Positions 14,277 through 21,387 of a stretch of DNA of 64,000 nucleotides are shown one piece after another (the stretch's first letter is position 1; every line of letters starts with the position of its first letter). Where the stretch lies: NCBI RefSeq assembly GCF_000376805.1, contig NZ_AQXT01000002.1, positions 744,001-808,000 on the forward strand, in the 5' to 3' direction. Position numbers and translations under genes: made by a program. The DNA is from Henriciella marina DSM 19595 (GTDB lineage Bacteria > Pseudomonadota > Alphaproteobacteria > Caulobacterales > Hyphomonadaceae). The notes under the pieces were generated by a model. That model ran no database searches. It was not told the DNA's origin and saw only the letters and a list, made by a program, of their open reading frames with translations.

Positions 14277-15113
14277 ATGGAACAGCTTCAGGATATCGAT
14301 CTAAACACGCTCTTTGCGGAATACTGGCCATCGTTGCTGAGCGGCGCGCTGAAAGTCATTGGCGCGCTTCTGGTGCTTGTCATTGGTCTGCGGATCGCGG
14401 GCTGGCTCTCAAGTGTTGTTCGCAAGCAGATGGCAAAGCGCAATGGCGTGGACGAGACCCTGGGCGCGTTCTTCGGCTCACTGGTTCGCTGGTTTGTCAC
14501 AGCGGCAGTTTTGATCGCGTCGCTACAGGTGTTCGGGGTGCAGGCAACCAGCTTCGTGGCCGTGCTTGGTGCGCTGACGCTAGCCATTGGTCTTTCGCTT
14601 CAGGGCGCGCTCGGCAATATTGCCTCGGGCGTGATGATCATGCTGTTCCGGCCCTACAAGATCGGTGACTTCGTGGAGATTGCGGACGCTGTAGGTACCG
14701 TCAAAGAGATCAATCTCTTCCAGACGATCCTTGCGACGCTCGACAATGTGAAGATCATCATCCCGAACACGGAAGCCATTGACGGCATCATCAAGAACTT
14801 CTCCGGATACGATACGCGTCGCTGCGATATTGTTTTCGGCATCGATTATGATGATGACATGGACAAGGCACTGGCCATCATCAAAGGTATCGTGGATCAG
14901 GACGAACGCGTTTTCAGCGATCCAGAACCGTTCGTGAAAGTTACGAATCTCGGCGATAGCTCGGTCGATATTACGTGCCGACTCTGGTGTAACGCCAGCG
15001 AACTCTGGAATTTGAAGTTCGACATGATCAAGCGCGTCAAGTCAGCGTTCGATGATCAGGGTATTTCCATTCCCTATCCGCATCGTACACTTGTTCAGAA
15101 GGTCGCGAACTAG
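14277..15113 (+). CDS. Small-conductance mechanosensitive channel, MscS family
   Basis: 278 residues. Three N-terminal membrane segments (about 18-42, 62-85 and 90-115) end in the Gly/Ala-rich pore helix FVAVLGALTLAIGLSLQGALGNIASGVMIM. The beta domain follows (RPYKIGDFVEIADAVGTVKEINLFQT, then IIIPNTEAIDGIIKNFS) and then the C-terminal alpha/beta domain. Such channels open under membrane tension and release solutes on osmotic downshock. Length matches E. coli MscS (286). GGTCT precedes the ATG with no strong Shine-Dalgarno. It is followed by a small membrane protein gene. Confidence 0.93.
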   Translation: MEQLQDIDLNTLFAEYWPSLLSGALKVIGALLVLVIGLRIAGWLSSVVRKQMAKRNGVDETLGAFFGSLVRWFVTAAVLIASLQVFGVQATSFVAVLGALTLAIGLSLQGALGNIASGVMIMLFRPYKIGDFVEIADAVGTVKEINLFQTILATLDNVKIIIPNTEAIDGIIKNFSGYDTRRCDIVFGIDYDDDMDKALAIIKGIVDQDERVFSDPEPFVKVTNLGDSSVDITCRLWCNASELWNLKFDMIKRVKSAFDDQGISIPYPHRTLVQKVAN

Positions 15114-16461: not shown

Positions 16462-17454
16462 CTAACGGACCGGTTCGTCGCCCGGCGCGATGAACCGGTC
16501 CAGCGGCTCGCCTCTCCAGTTGGCGTGCGCGATCTCGATCCGCTCGTGCACGTCATCCGGTACCGATGGCAGCTTGTGGATCGGGAGGAGAAGCGGGCGC
16601 AAACCCTTGAGGTTGGCGGTCTGGATGGCGATGCCGGGGCGGGCATTGAGCTCAAGCAGGGTAGGGCCCTTATTCTCGCAGATCACGATATCGACGCCAA
16701 CATAGCCAAGCCCGACATGCTTGCCGAGGCGGCTGGCCAGCTCGAGGATTTCTGACCAGGAAGGCACCTGGAAGTCGCGGACCGGGGTTTCGAAGTCTGG
16801 GTGAACATCGACAGAATCATTGTGCTGGACGCCGCGCGTGGTGATGCCAGTCACAAGATCGATGCCTGCGCCAATGCCGCCCTGGTGAAGATTTGCCTTC
16901 CCGTCAGACTCTGCTGTCGGAAGACGCAGCATGGCCATGACCGGAATACCCCGGAAAACGATGACCCGGACATCAGGGACGCCGCCGAATGCCAGTTTCG
17001 AGAATGCCGAATGCGGTACGAGGCGTTCTTCGATCATTACCTGATCCGAGCCATCGCCCATGGAGAACATTCCGCTCAACATATTGTTGAGATGATACCG
17101 GACGTCCGGCCATGGGACAATCTGGCCATTCATCCGGCGAAGACCGGTCTTGGCAACGCCATTGAATACCATGATCCCGCCCCCGCCAGAGCCGTTTGAC
17201 GGCTTTACAACGAAGGACCGGTGCTTCTGGGCGACCTCTTCAATGATGTGCATCTCGCCGCCATAGCGAATGACGCCGTAGAGTTCAGGCACGGTCACGC
17301 CAGCCTCTATGGCCAGTTTCTTGGTGATGACCTTGTCGTCGACCAGCGGATAAAGACGGCGCGGATTATAGGAGATGATGAAGTCGAGGTTACGGCTATT
17401 GATGCCGAGCACGCCGGCCTTTGCCAGCCGCGAAACTGGACCGAGCCTCAGCAT
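16462..17454 (-). CDS. RimK-like ATP-grasp ligase (alpha-L-glutamate ligase-like)
   Basis: 330 residues. The ATP-grasp fold is visible: a Lys-rich pre-domain (LVDDKVITKKLAIEAGVTVPE), the ATP-binding KPSNGSGGGGI loop (K84), the VMIEERLV segment and the metal-binding LLELNARPG (E268, N270). RimK-type enzymes join amino acids, often glutamate, to a carboxyl group. The substrate here is unknown. It starts 2 bp after the inactive transglutaminase/7TM gene and ends the three-gene cassette. No signal peptide is seen, so it acts in the cytoplasm. Confidence 0.88.
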   Translation of the reverse strand: MLRLGPVSRLAKAGVLGINSRNLDFIISYNPRRLYPLVDDKVITKKLAIEAGVTVPELYGVIRYGGEMHIIEEVAQKHRSFVVKPSNGSGGGGIMVFNGVAKTGLRRMNGQIVPWPDVRYHLNNMLSGMFSMGDGSDQVMIEERLVPHSAFSKLAFGGVPDVRVIVFRGIPVMAMLRLPTAESDGKANLHQGGIGAGIDLVTGITTRGVQHNDSVDVHPDFETPVRDFQVPSWSEILELASRLGKHVGLGYVGVDIVICENKGPTLLELNARPGIAIQTANLKGLRPLLLPIHKLPSVPDDVHERIEIAHANWRGEPLDRFIAPGDEPVR

Positions 17455-17456
17455 TC

Positions 17457-19022
17457 TCAGTTCCGTCCCTCATTGGCCAGAACCTTGAACCGGAAATACT
17501 CGGTCACCTTGTAACCTGTATAGCGGCCAAGGAGCAGCACGCCCGCCAAGACGATCAGCAACAGCTCCGGGAAGACGATGGCGATGTGCTCGATATATTC
17601 GCTGGTCAGAATGTAATAAGCCGGTATGGCCCCCGCGAGCGAGCCAGCTGCTTTCTTGAGCGCCTCTGAAGCCCCGTCTTCTTCCCAGGTAAGCGACATA
17701 CGCTCGATCGTCATGGTGATGATGACCAGTGGGAAGAGGGAGATCGAGAGACCAGTCTGGATACCCATGGCTTCACCAGCGAGCGCAATGAACATCATCA
17801 CGAAGGTCACGATGATGAGTACGGCCGCCAGTCGTGGCACGAGCAGGAGCTGAAGCTGATTGAAGTAAGCCCGCAGCAGGAGACCCACGGCGACGATACC
17901 CACAAACAGCATTATCCCCGTAATCAGCTGGGTTTCACGGAATGCCAGCGCGATCAGGACGGGCATGAACGTGCCAAAGGCTGGCATGCCGATTACCTGT
18001 TTCAGGATGACGATGATGAGCGCGCCTAGTGGGATCAGCAGAAGGACGCGGAAGACGAGCTGCAGGTCGATCGGCAGGCTGAGGAGTGAGGTTGCATTGA
18101 CCCAAGGGGCGTATTCCTGGCCGCGCTCCAGCGCCCGCGAAAGCTGGCTCTCAAAGTTGCGCGCAACCGACCAGGAGACGCCGAGGCGGGTGAAGCCGTC
18201 ACCGGAGACAATCGGTTGACGGTCATAGACAATCGGCAAGGCGCGCGCATCATCGAGTGGCTCGGCTGTGGTGCCGCTCGCGCTGACCCAGCGGTCGCCG
18301 AGCCAGTACTCTATCCATGTCTGGAGCGGCGCCTGGCGCGTATCTGTGTCGAGAATGATGCCCTGGACGTGGCGCGCAGGTGTACCAGCCGCGTTGAGAA
18401 GAAAGACAAGCCGGTCCGACGCGTTCGAGATTTCTGGCGGACCGCCCTCAATGATGGTCGAGATGCGATCGTCGCCTTCATCAGAGCTGAGCCGGGCAAG
18501 TTGCGCGATGAAACTCCGCTCGCCCGCAGATTTCTCGAGAGCTTCTGTCAGAACCGAATCGAGAGCCACGAGTAGCGGGGTGGCATTCTCCTGGATCGCG
18601 CGCCGTCGTTCAGACCGCCGGAAATCTGAAACGGCATCCGGTGTGGGGCGGTTCTGTGACGAGTAACGCTGATCAACGGAAATCAGCTTGGCGCTGTAGA
18701 ACAGGACGGCGCTGCCATCTTGTGCGCGCCGTTCGAAGATAGCCTGGCGGCCAGCTTCACTATTGTCCGTTTCAACCCCAAAGCCGGACGCGACGAAGCT
18801 TTCATCAACGACCGTGAAAGGTCCTTCCGAGTTTGGCAGGGCAAGGCGGAGCGTAACCGGGTCACCCCGGCCACGGAAAGAAATCTTGGCTTCGATCGTC
18901 CAGGTATCGGAATCAAGGTTGGGCACCACGGGAAAGCCGAGGCGGGTCACCTTATATGAAAAGATGCCGAGCGCGGCCGCAATGAGTGCGCCCACGATAA
19001 TCAGCAATTGTGTCTGTTTCAA
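17457..19022 (-). CDS. Inactive transglutaminase-like domain fused to a 7TM region
   Basis: 521 residues. One N-terminal membrane segment (about 6-24), a periplasmic region (about 30-305) and about seven membrane helices (about 315-505: VFRVLLLIPLGALIIVIL, LLLVPRLAAVLIIVTFVMMF, others). Within the periplasmic part LVFLLNAAGTPARHVQGIIL is the transglutaminase signature helix-strand, but the catalytic Cys position upstream is occupied by SNASDR, so the domain looks inactive and perhaps binds peptides. This architecture is known to be encoded beside RimK-like ligases. It sits 39 bp downstream of the retropepsin gene. Confidence 0.87.
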   Translation of the reverse strand: MKQTQLLIIVGALIAAALGIFSYKVTRLGFPVVPNLDSDTWTIEAKISFRGRGDPVTLRLALPNSEGPFTVVDESFVASGFGVETDNSEAGRQAIFERRAQDGSAVLFYSAKLISVDQRYSSQNRPTPDAVSDFRRSERRRAIQENATPLLVALDSVLTEALEKSAGERSFIAQLARLSSDEGDDRISTIIEGGPPEISNASDRLVFLLNAAGTPARHVQGIILDTDTRQAPLQTWIEYWLGDRWVSASGTTAEPLDDARALPIVYDRQPIVSGDGFTRLGVSWSVARNFESQLSRALERGQEYAPWVNATSLLSLPIDLQLVFRVLLLIPLGALIIVILKQVIGMPAFGTFMPVLIALAFRETQLITGIMLFVGIVAVGLLLRAYFNQLQLLLVPRLAAVLIIVTFVMMFIALAGEAMGIQTGLSISLFPLVIITMTIERMSLTWEEDGASEALKKAAGSLAGAIPAYYILTSEYIEHIAIVFPELLLIVLAGVLLLGRYTGYKVTEYFRFKVLANEGRN

Positions 19023-19061
19023 AAACTGACTCCGACTCGCCCCATTGAGACCTTGGCTGGG

Positions 19062-19577
19062 CTATTTAGGGCAACGAGCACGCTTCGTATAGATTTCGCT
19101 TGAATCAACAATGATATTTGAAGTTTCAAGCATGTTGCGCCCGATGAGAGTTTCATAGTTGAAATTGCCGCGATCAGCGAGCGTTACTTCATCCTCGATC
19201 AGCAATCCGCCAAGACAGAATTCAAGTTCGACAACCGGCCGATAAAGAACGCCGCCCTGTTTGGTCTTGATGGCTGCCCAGCGGACGATCTCGGTTTCGA
19301 TTGTCCGTTCATCGCCATCTTCGTTGATGACCTTGAAGATGATGTCGCGGCTCTCATCCTCATCGTCAAACTCCTTGCGAGGTGGCGCGGACATAATCTC
19401 GGCATGAATGGAGGATGTCGTTGCCCCAGTGTCGAGCTTTGCGTCGAGTTCGATGTCGAGGTCGGCAATACGGACATGTTCCAGCCAGCCGAGCGTATGT
19501 TTTTCGTTATCGTCATCCGCAGATGCGCCGAGCGCGGCCCCTGAAAGAACGAGCAGCGAAGTAATCAGTTTGAGCAT
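19062..19577 (-). CDS. Secreted retropepsin-like aspartic protease (putative ATP-dependent zinc protease/RimB family)
   Basis: 171 residues. A signal peptide (about 1-20, LITSLLVLSGAALGASA) precedes a single retropepsin-like domain. The catalytic Asp-Thr-Gly is D49-T50-G51 in AKLDTGATTSSIHA, and the C-terminal part ends with NFNYETLIGRNML, typical of this family (often annotated as an ATP-dependent zinc protease). One DTG per chain implies a homodimer. It is the first gene of the minus-strand cassette with the 7TM protein and the ligase, and is the only one predicted to be wholly periplasmic. Confidence 0.86.
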   Translation of the reverse strand: MLKLITSLLVLSGAALGASADDDNEKHTLGWLEHVRIADLDIELDAKLDTGATTSSIHAEIMSAPPRKEFDDEDESRDIIFKVINEDGDERTIETEIVRWAAIKTKQGGVLYRPVVELEFCLGGLLIEDEVTLADRGNFNYETLIGRNMLETSNIIVDSSEIYTKRARCPK

Positions 19578-19671
19578 AATATTATTTGCCTGTCTTGCTT
19601 CGTGTTATCGGCGCGCTTGAACACGACAATTGTGAATTTCGCATGGCGAAACTCGTATCTATCCGTGACCG

Positions 19672-21243
19672 TCAGGCGCTGGTGAGATCTTTCACGAGCT
19701 GATTGACGGCGCCATAATCGATTTTCCCTGTCCCGAGGACCGGGATGTCATCGACATGGTAGACCTTTCGCGGGACAGAAAGTTCCGAAACACCGTGAGA
19801 TTGCGACCAGGCAAGTATGTCGCTGCGATTGGCAGAAGCGGCTGTCGTGAGTAGCACGACCTGCTCACCCTTGCGCGGATCGGGGATCGCGCCGGCCGCA
19901 TGCATGTCGTCCGGCCAGATGGCGCTCGCGCAGTTTTCAACGACGGAAAGCGAGACCATTTCGCCGCCTATCTTGGCAAAGCGTTTGACGCGGCCCTGAA
20001 TGCGGATGAAGCGATCCTTGTCGATCGCCACGATGTCGCCGGTGTCGTGCCAGCCTTCATCCAGGGGCTCGATCACGCCGGGATTATCCGAACGCATATA
20101 GCCCTGCATGACGTTCGGGCCGCGGATGCGGAGCTTGCCGCCATCCTCAATGCCTTCAACGGGTATAAGCTCATATTCCATATCGGCCATAAGCTGGCCG
20201 ACACTGCCGGGCCTGTTCTCTTCGATGCAATTGGCGGCGACGACGGGAGAGGCTTCGGTGGCGCCGTAACCTTCAAGGATTTCGATCTGGAATTTGCGGC
20301 GGACCAGTTGCCGCGTCTCATCGCGCACGCGCTCAGCGCCGCAGACCGCGAGACGGACGCTGTTGAGGTCGCCGTCTTCGCCGACACGGGCATATTGGGA
20401 TATGAAGGTGTCGGTCGCGAGCAGAATGGTCGCACCGGTCTTGCCAATGCGTCTGGCGATCTCGCGCGGCTGCAGGGGGGTCGGATGGAAGATCGCTTTG
20501 ACCCCAGCCATGAGCGGCAGCAGCGCGCCGACGGTCAAGCCGAAGCAGTGAAATGTCGGCAACGGATTGAAGACCACATCGGCTTGCGGATCGAGGCCGA
20601 TATGGGCGCGGACCTGCTCGACATTGGACACAATGTTCTGATGGCTGAGAACGACGCCTTTCGGCTCCCCTTCAGTGCCGGATGTGAAGAGGATGACGCC
20701 CGTCTTCTTGTGGTCCGGGCCTGCAAAGACGGTCGTTGGAAAAATCGGGCCAACGACGCCTTTCAGCTTGTCCTTGACGCTCAGATTCTCGCGAACGTCT
20801 TCAAGATAGATGATTTCAGAGGCGTCACTCAGCGTTTCAATCAGCGGCTCAAGGCTGCCCAGTTCAACAAATTTGTGCGCCGTAAGAATGCGCTCAACCT
20901 TTGCGGCCTTCATCGCTGACTTGATGTTCGCCGACCCAGCCGTGAAGTTCAGCATTGCGGGAATACGGCCAGCGGCAAGGACCGCCAGGAATGCGATGAC
21001 AGCTCCTGCGCCTGTCGGGAGCATGATGCCAACAACTTCGTTTTTTGAGGTCTTCCGCTTCAGGGCGGAGCCGAGGGCGAAAGCGGCGCGCGCAAGATCG
21101 TTATAGGTCAGCTCGCGCTCATCCCCGTCGATCACAGCGGTTGTCGACGGGCCGAATTCCCTGCGCGCTCTCAGAAAGGCGGAAAAGATGTCCGTACGCG
21201 TGCGTTTGGCATTGTAGGGAATCGGGCTCGGAATGTTTGACAT
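19672..21243 (-). CDS. AMP-forming acyl-CoA/acyl-ACP synthetase, similar to the synthetase half of Aas
   Basis: 523 residues. The P-loop-like ILFTSGTEGEPKGVVLSH, the GYGATEASPV motif, the WHDTGDIVAID motif and the C-terminal lysine in LGTGKIDYGA identify an adenylate-forming acyl ligase. The spacing (NVMQGYMR, GRVKRFAKIGGEMVSL) resembles the C-terminal acyl-ACP synthetase half of E. coli Aas; no acyltransferase domain is attached. Likely role: activating free or lyso-lipid-derived fatty acids. ATG 21243 is chosen because the polypeptide then begins MSNIPSPIPYN; upstream residues look non-homologous. Two palindromes lie 28-57 bp upstream. Confidence 0.83.
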   Translation of the reverse strand: MSNIPSPIPYNAKRTRTDIFSAFLRARREFGPSTTAVIDGDERELTYNDLARAAFALGSALKRKTSKNEVVGIMLPTGAGAVIAFLAVLAAGRIPAMLNFTAGSANIKSAMKAAKVERILTAHKFVELGSLEPLIETLSDASEIIYLEDVRENLSVKDKLKGVVGPIFPTTVFAGPDHKKTGVILFTSGTEGEPKGVVLSHQNIVSNVEQVRAHIGLDPQADVVFNPLPTFHCFGLTVGALLPLMAGVKAIFHPTPLQPREIARRIGKTGATILLATDTFISQYARVGEDGDLNSVRLAVCGAERVRDETRQLVRRKFQIEILEGYGATEASPVVAANCIEENRPGSVGQLMADMEYELIPVEGIEDGGKLRIRGPNVMQGYMRSDNPGVIEPLDEGWHDTGDIVAIDKDRFIRIQGRVKRFAKIGGEMVSLSVVENCASAIWPDDMHAAGAIPDPRKGEQVVLLTTAASANRSDILAWSQSHGVSELSVPRKVYHVDDIPVLGTGKIDYGAVNQLVKDLTSA

Positions 21244-21270
21244 GGCGGGCTTCGCTTCGTGCTGATCTGA

Positions 21271-21300
21271 ATTTTGTAACAAAATGTCACAGAAGGTGAC
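21271..21300. promoter_or_regulatory. Two adjacent palindromes between the acyl synthetase gene and lipA
   Basis: ATTTTGTAACAAAAT (21271-21285) is a perfect 7+1+7 palindrome. Immediately after it, GTCAC-AGAAG-GTGAC (21286-21300) is a perfect 5-bp inverted repeat. They lie 28 bp upstream of the acyl synthetase ATG and 88 bp upstream of lipA, where a regulator could control one or both divergent genes. The regulator is unknown. Confidence 0.45.
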
Positions 21301-21387
21301 GAAAGCAACTCGCAAGGTCAGCCGGGTCAAACCCGTCATGCGACATTGCAACTTGATGAGGCGGCCCCATCAGTCCATTTAGGGGCC

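Follow-up and report, generated by a model that had tools for sequence, protein, structure and literature searches.

The gene neighbourhood considered here, which joins a retropepsin, a membrane protein and a RimK-related ligase, was reportedly, and probably for the first time, described by Iyer et al. in 2009 (Mol BioSyst). It was named rloABC and described in Pseudomonas aeruginosa by Lormand et al. in 2025 (PMC12239564). In that study, the secreted retropepsin RloA cleaved reporters carrying 8 or 10 glutamates in a row, and not those with six or fewer, and it acts on polyglutamate within or at the end of proteins. Cells that have lost three RloA proteases do not grow without salt; sucrose relieves this defect in part, and their growth in salt-free medium is fully restored when rloB or rloC is deleted. 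Loss of Rlo alters cell shape, biofilm, β-lactam sensitivity and survival at low osmolarity; a proteome search gave no genome-encoded RloA substrate. For the related RimB–RimK pair, the published account describes the addition and removal of a glutamate tail on RpsF and the in vitro synthesis of free poly-α-glutamate of up to 28 residues by RimK with RimB (PMC11957791). Here we describe a cassette of Henriciella marina DSM 19595 (Alphaproteobacteria, Hyphomonadaceae), located in a stretch of 64,000 nucleotides (contig NZ_AQXT01000002.1, positions 744,001 to 808,000), hereafter the window, whose positions are used as coordinates. We assign the cassette to rloABC, as a divergent alphaproteobacterial member of the published system. 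With confidence that is evenly balanced, we propose that its RloC polymerises glutamate, that RloB passes the chain to the periplasm and that RloA cuts it there, the chain serving envelope or osmotic homeostasis. A first-pass annotation, made from the letters of the window, had presented the cassette as a poorly described system, a view that was given up because rloABC has been in print since 2025; the novelty is carried by the comparative clues reported below more than by the window operon.

Three open reading frames (ORFs), all on the minus strand, occupy positions 16462–19577 exactly where the first-pass annotation had placed them, with gaps of 39 bp between rloA and rloB and 2 bp between rloB and rloC. 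As in P. aeruginosa, the order is A-B-C on one strand, and the products are a secreted DTGA retropepsin with a Cys pair, a dead transglutaminase domain joined to a membrane domain, and a TIGR02291-type ligase. The two systems differ in that the window operon is alphaproteobacterial, has one RloA instead of three, falls below the Rlo cut-offs for RloA and RloB, and is found in a genome with no RimK over the cut-off (the best RimK-family match scores 70.3 bits against 143.4). This genome comprises 3.28 Mb in two contigs, and rloA is its sole PF05618 gene. All Pfam matches are above their cut-offs: PF05618 for RloA (89.8 bits), PF14400 and PF14402 for RloB (111.3 and 290.6 bits) and PF14397 for RloC (264.9 bits). 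In NCBIfam, the three products come closest to the models RloA, RloB and “alpha-L-glutamate ligase-like protein”. RloC exceeds the TIGR02291 cut-off (358 bits against 314.2), whereas the curated cut-offs are missed by RloA (87.9 against 210 for the RloA3 model) and by RloB (313.8 against 900). These Rlo cut-offs look narrow, belonging to “equivalog” or “exception” models, and the operon is therefore taken as a divergent rloABC member and not as an RloA3/RloB equivalog. RimB–RimK, the S6 glutamylation pair, also resembles the cassette in having a related retropepsin and an ATP-grasp ligase with shared core residues, but RimB has no signal peptide and the pair has no membrane partner. Membership of RimBK was rejected because RloA reaches 45.9 bits where the RimB model requires 200 and RloC 16.6 where the S6-ligase model requires 331, and because the genome lacks a RimK over the cut-off.

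RloA starts with a signal-peptide-like segment (MLKLITSLLVLSGAALGASA, judged by eye) and contains the active site D49-T50-G51-A and the Cys pair, in agreement with the signal-peptide retropepsin proposed earlier. Residue numbers of the reported polyglutamate contacts (K46, R92, R114 and R137) were mapped in this analysis onto a reference RloA chain, and the window equivalents are K, R, R and R. R114 is kept in 109 and R137 in 108 of the 110 RloAs that adjoin an RloB. This conservation supports the cutting of a glutamate chain by RloA. The flap of the window protein, 8 residues shorter than that of P. fluorescens RloA, has the commonest length (57/110). In RloC, the residues K41, K84, D255, E268 and N270, which we take to have ATP-grasp roles, are invariant in all 119 aligned sequences (123 downstream RloCs less four whose ORFs are cut or split), and the earlier assignment as a ligase with its metal and ATP residues in place stands accordingly. 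The core common to RloC and a RimK comprises K41, K84, D161, R163, N188-L189-H190, D255, E268 and N270.

RloB was predicted by the first-pass annotation to combine a Cys-less transglutaminase domain with about seven helices. The first part is confirmed by alignment, in which the triad positions read I/Q/S instead of the Cys/His/Asp of an active transglutaminase. The helix count is less settled: “seven” rests on the Pfam model, while the hydropathy script gave an N-terminal segment and five strong segments beyond the periplasmic domain, and AlphaFold prediction with 12 close sequences reached a mean predicted local distance difference test score of 51, which does not settle the membrane part. 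The search for solved structures related to RloB by sequence gave no credible one. With the low-confidence model as query, the best Foldseek match is the putative cysteine protease 3isr (E 3.9e-12, TM-score 0.29 by query length), so that the dead domain resembles a protease that has lost its activity. Disruption of an inactive-transglutaminase gene in Shewanella vesiculosa is reported to increase vesicle production (PMC12096838).

The linkage of the three genes was surveyed in 299 Pseudomonadota genomes, and the flanking DNA of the RloB loci was examined. RloB is present in 48 of them, and the same 48 carry an adjoining RloC-like match of at least 250 bits, the next-best RloC-like match in the survey being 80.7 bits. 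In added samples, RloB was found in 14 of 289 genomes of Alphaproteobacteria, in 5 of 78 of the class of G060 and in 66 of 321 of the class of G098. Scanning covered 134 loci, one of which (L166, a sub-cut-off match) has no RloB; the remaining 133 overlap in kinship and are not independent, 12 of them coming from Henriciella and near kin, and two (L163 and L180) stop at contig ends. RloC lies directly downstream of RloB on the same strand in 123/133 loci, to which L124 adds an overlapping frame. RloA, counted on the locus DNA itself and not from the PF05618 match list, adjoins RloB in 110. Of 37 canonical loci that are mutually diverse, all have RloC and 35 have RloA. The window RloB is 81–94% identical to those of ten Henriciella relatives and 61% identical to that of another member of the Hyphomonadaceae; as RloB is kept in these relatives and the cassette recurs across classes, the association is more than chance, and the co-occurrence on which the first-pass annotation had staked its proposal holds.

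The same 37 diverse loci were searched for further partners. Beyond A and C, the one larger group consists of ORFs that overlie rloC on the opposite strand in 22 loci and look antisense; no other family occurs in more than five loci, which disposes of a conserved fourth gene. A linked small acidic substrate, also suggested by the first-pass annotation, was rejected, since none of 1488 small ORFs (30–110 amino acids, within 2.5 kb of the cassettes) exceeds 25% Asp+Glu, the highest value being 22.9%, and no small-ORF family recurs in more than five loci. This result bears on a reading that we consider rather unlikely, in which RloC polyglutamylates a protein, either an exported one of the envelope or part of RloB itself; RloB would help to present this protein across the membrane, and RloA would take off the tail in the way of RimB on RpsF. 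The precedent of RimK/RimB on RpsF (PMC11957791) and the ability of RloA to cut polyglutamate inside or at the end of proteins (PMC12239564) agree with such tagging. However, no gene family that could encode a linked substrate was found in the diverse loci, a cytoplasmic tag would still have to get to the periplasm, and the published proteome search is also without a genome-encoded substrate (PMC12239564), a result with no bearing on post-translational tags. The data agree with a free RloC polymer no less well than with a tagged protein.

Four architectures were distinguished among the RloB loci. Type I, that of the window, has the order A-B-C and a dead RloB domain; 110 of the 117 RloBs with a Cys-less domain adjoin an RloA. 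The seven others comprise L162, with an RloA 4.8 kb away, G193 and G613, with a secreted RloA elsewhere, G718 and G675, with a RimB-like protein only, and G822 and G485, with no PF05618 match. Type II was found in 14/133 loci from at least three classes (L053–L057, L122 and L151–L158), and its RloB keeps the Cys-His-Asp triad. None of the 14 has an RloA beside this RloB. PF05618 is absent from seven of the 14 genomes and represented in five by RimB-like proteins only, with no evident signal peptide; the remaining two have a secreted RloA beside their own second, Cys-less RloB. A large tetratricopeptide repeat (TPR) protein with one strong hydrophobic segment directly follows the type II RloC in 14/14 loci by clustering and in 13/14 by direct search. 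It is followed in 12/14 by a signal-peptide protein of 372–412 amino acids, which from its sequence would be a barrel; this protein was not found in L158, and the L055 contig ends before that position. Seven of these 12 proteins end in F or Y, and of those run against Pfam, L122 gave a sub-threshold match (27.8 against 28.7) and L053 and L157 none. In two type II loci, L122 and L158, RloB and RloC are fused in one frame. In a tree of 124 RloB rows (two short rows and seven near-duplicate Henriciella rows having been left out), the active-triad RloBs form one clade (Shimodaira–Hasegawa-like approximate likelihood ratio test 98, with long-branch warnings). The exclusion of RloA is therefore about one evolutionary contrast, and the Fisher p of 4.8e-14 by locus is not relied on. 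The simplest reading is that the active domain of type II does in cis what RloA does in trans.

In type III, six loci, RloB has no adjoining RloC, and RloA adjoins RloB on the other strand in four of the six. TIGR02291 matches are absent from four of these genomes; G747 has a single one, of 19.6 bits, and G848 has its type II copy only. At the type III locus L164, a RimK over the cut-off, RloB and a secreted RloA stand side by side, and this RimK may take the place of RloC. Type IV, two loci, consists of the membrane part of RloB with RloC; in both, a signal-peptide protein ending in F, barrel-like and with no Pfam match, precedes RloB. A motif beyond the last helix of RloB, with W at its second position in type II, is intact in 126/126 scorable RloBs of types I, II and IV (one type I row was not scorable) and in 0/6 of type III, in which core residues such as P331, G350, F352, P431 and R441 are still kept. 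As the motif accompanies RloC, we infer that the RloB tail would be the docking site of RloC, although the type III contrast again amounts to about one evolutionary event. The near-constant unit is thus the RloB membrane core with RloC, the periplasmic domain being dead, active or absent and RloA variable, as expected if RloBC makes and moves something that the other parts handle outside.

A receptor role was also considered, in which the dead RloB domain would sense acidic peptides and signal to RloC, which would modify a cytoplasmic target, while RloA removes the ligand. The plan of RloB, in which a dead domain that may bind ligands is joined to several membrane helices and a conserved tail, does resemble that of a receptor, and a weak osmotic hint comes from a presumed MscS-like gene, found close to the cassette in the window, in 10 loci of Henriciella and in 3 more of the 134 that were scanned. 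Yet the domain keeps a full catalytic triad in 14 loci and is absent from two in which the membrane part and RloC remain, and we regard this role as very unlikely.

In the polymer pathway that we favour, RloC, docked on the tail of RloB on the cytoplasmic side, would spend ATP on the synthesis of an acidic chain, which is most likely poly-α-L-glutamate. The RloB membrane domain would move the chain into the periplasm, where the dead cysteine-protease-like domain would hold or guide it and RloA would cut it; uncut, the chain would build up in the periplasm and lead to death at low osmolarity. All steps before RloA are inferred. Synthesis of polyglutamate by RloC is supported by its RimK core and by the free poly-α-glutamate made by RimK with RimB (PMC11957791), and a joint role of RloBC in synthesis and translocation by the near-inseparable pairing of the two genes and by their natural fusions. 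The rescue of RloA loss by rloB or rloC deletion (PMC12239564) also supports a polymer, since it parallels Vibrio cholerae, where mutants with a build-up of polymers in the periplasm show sensitivity to low osmolarity and several β-lactams and loss of opgH rescues them (PMC8820737). A secreted AstE/AspA-family protein, of a family whose enzymes by name act on acyl-Glu or acyl-Asp, directly follows rloC in seven canonical loci and was counted for the polymer as well. The order of events agrees with the P. aeruginosa genetics and RloA specificity (PMC12239564), so that the add, pass and trim scheme of the first-pass annotation was right in outline.

Several observations weigh against this pathway. 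Polyglutamate from P. fluorescens RimK was detected solely in the presence of RimB, and the chains made by E. coli RimK were short (PMC11957791). The genomes G718, G675 and G822 combine a dead-domain RloB and RloC with no secreted RloA, the six type III loci have RloB without adjoining RloC, and in G485, a 99%-complete genome, an RloB with an intact tail motif lies at a contig end with no RloC and no PF05618 match anywhere. Each architecture contrast amounts to about one clade, the seven-transmembrane fold is of low confidence, so that RloB is a putative translocase, and a glutamate chain is the predicted product.

The features described are collected in the table below. The gene upstream of rloA is acyl-ACP (acyl carrier protein) ligase-like; it matches NF005291, an acyl-ACP--phospholipid O-acyltransferase model, by the ligase half alone (610–1134 of 1140), and its kin occur near the cassette in L012 and L184. 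The gene near rloC, judged by its sequence, is presumably an MscS-like channel gene. The three other loci with a homologue close to the cassette, besides the 10 of Henriciella, are L047, L048 and L162. Promoter-like matches between 16200 and 19900 number 6 against 1.6 in shuffles, all weak; the same scan gave no terminator-like site, and the Rfam search of the window gave nothing at the gathering score.

Features of the rlo cassette and of compared loci (window positions, unless a locus prefix is given)
Feature	Position	Strand	Description
rloA	19062..19577	-	171 amino acids; secreted retropepsin-like aspartic protease, signal-peptide-like N-terminus, DTGA active site, Cys pair
rloB	17457..19022	-	521 amino acids, TTG start; inner-membrane protein
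rloB layout			N-terminal anchor, periplasmic dead transglutaminase/cysteine-protease-like domain, multi-helix membrane domain, cytoplasmic tail motif
rloB tail motif			G499-x-Y501-x-G503...E508-x-x-R511-F512
rloC	16462..17454	-	330 amino acids; cytoplasmic RimK-related ATP-grasp ligase, catalytic core kept
Gap upstream of rloA	19578..19671	-	94 bp; possible operon promoter, consensus match only
Promoter-like match	19608-19581		weak, in gap upstream of rloA
Gene upstream of rloA	19672-21351		acyl-ACP ligase-like
Gene near rloC	14277-15113		presumed MscS-like channel gene
RloB-RloC fusion, type II	L122:6823-9324		833 amino acids
RloB-RloC fusion, type II	L158:6475-8991		838 amino acids
RimK, RloB and RloA, type III	L164:6109-9290		side by side
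Protein preceding RloB, type IV	L058:7155-8099; L059:7463-8410		signal peptide, ends in F, barrel-like
RloB of G485	L113:7442-8838		tail motif intact, contig end
AstE/AspA-family	L170:4687-6027; L179:8311-9738; L183:4348-5730; L185:4555-5856		Pfam-confirmed
AstE/AspA-family	L144, L145, L147		cut copies, by homology
AstE/AspA-family	L169:9036-10250		nearby on other strand

The acyl-ACP ligase-like neighbour in the window and in L012 would suit a further reading, that a lipid or envelope precursor, for instance of peptidoglycan or a glycan, is the target of amidation or glutamylation by RloC, is flipped by RloB and loses its acidic part to RloA. The Pfam name of PF14397, “sugar-transfer associated ATP-grasp”, and the cell-shape and β-lactam phenotypes (PMC12239564) point the same way. 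Such a neighbour is nevertheless found in only 3/37 diverse loci, and the need of RloA for about 8 consecutive glutamates (PMC12239564) is unlike a single amide; we judge this reading improbable.

A wider form of the polymer pathway, put forward as tentative, is that RloBC is dedicated to making polyglutamate and moving it across the inner membrane of Gram-negative bacteria, as a synthase-translocase whose non-ribosomal polypeptide would be the counterpart of osmoregulated periplasmic glucans. Two lifestyles would exist, one periplasmic and trimmed by RloA, as in the window, and one of export, in which the active RloB domain replaces RloA and the TPR protein and an outer-membrane barrel lead to the surface. 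The glucans of OpgH are likewise a periplasmic polymer whose excess harms at low osmolarity (PMC8820737), an analogy only, since rlo has an amide ligase and not a glycosyltransferase. Kinship with RimK suggests an α linkage for the rlo chain, unlike the γ linkage of PgsBCA. The PgsBCA poly-γ-glutamate capsule system presumably shares with rlo the functional plan of a ligase, a membrane partner and a depolymerase for a glutamate polymer, although the families differ. The type II TPR and barrel-like pair is what would be expected of an exporter, and that operon may export its product; we take it to resemble exopolysaccharide export through TPR proteins and outer-membrane barrels, as in PgaA or AlgK/AlgE. 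This likeness concerns the type II relatives only, as the window operon has neither component. The type II clade operon, the RloB–RloC fusions, the tail motif and the AstE/AspA gene were not found in the open-licence literature excluding bioRxiv, and may be described elsewhere.

The comparison narrows the Rlo substrate to a path in which a glutamate chain is made, moved and trimmed. Handles for testing it are provided by a host whose genome has just one PF05618 gene and lacks a RimK over the cut-off, by two RloB–RloC fusions, by a candidate docking motif and by a possible exporter sister operon. If the proposal is true, the chain would represent a new class of bacterial envelope polymer.

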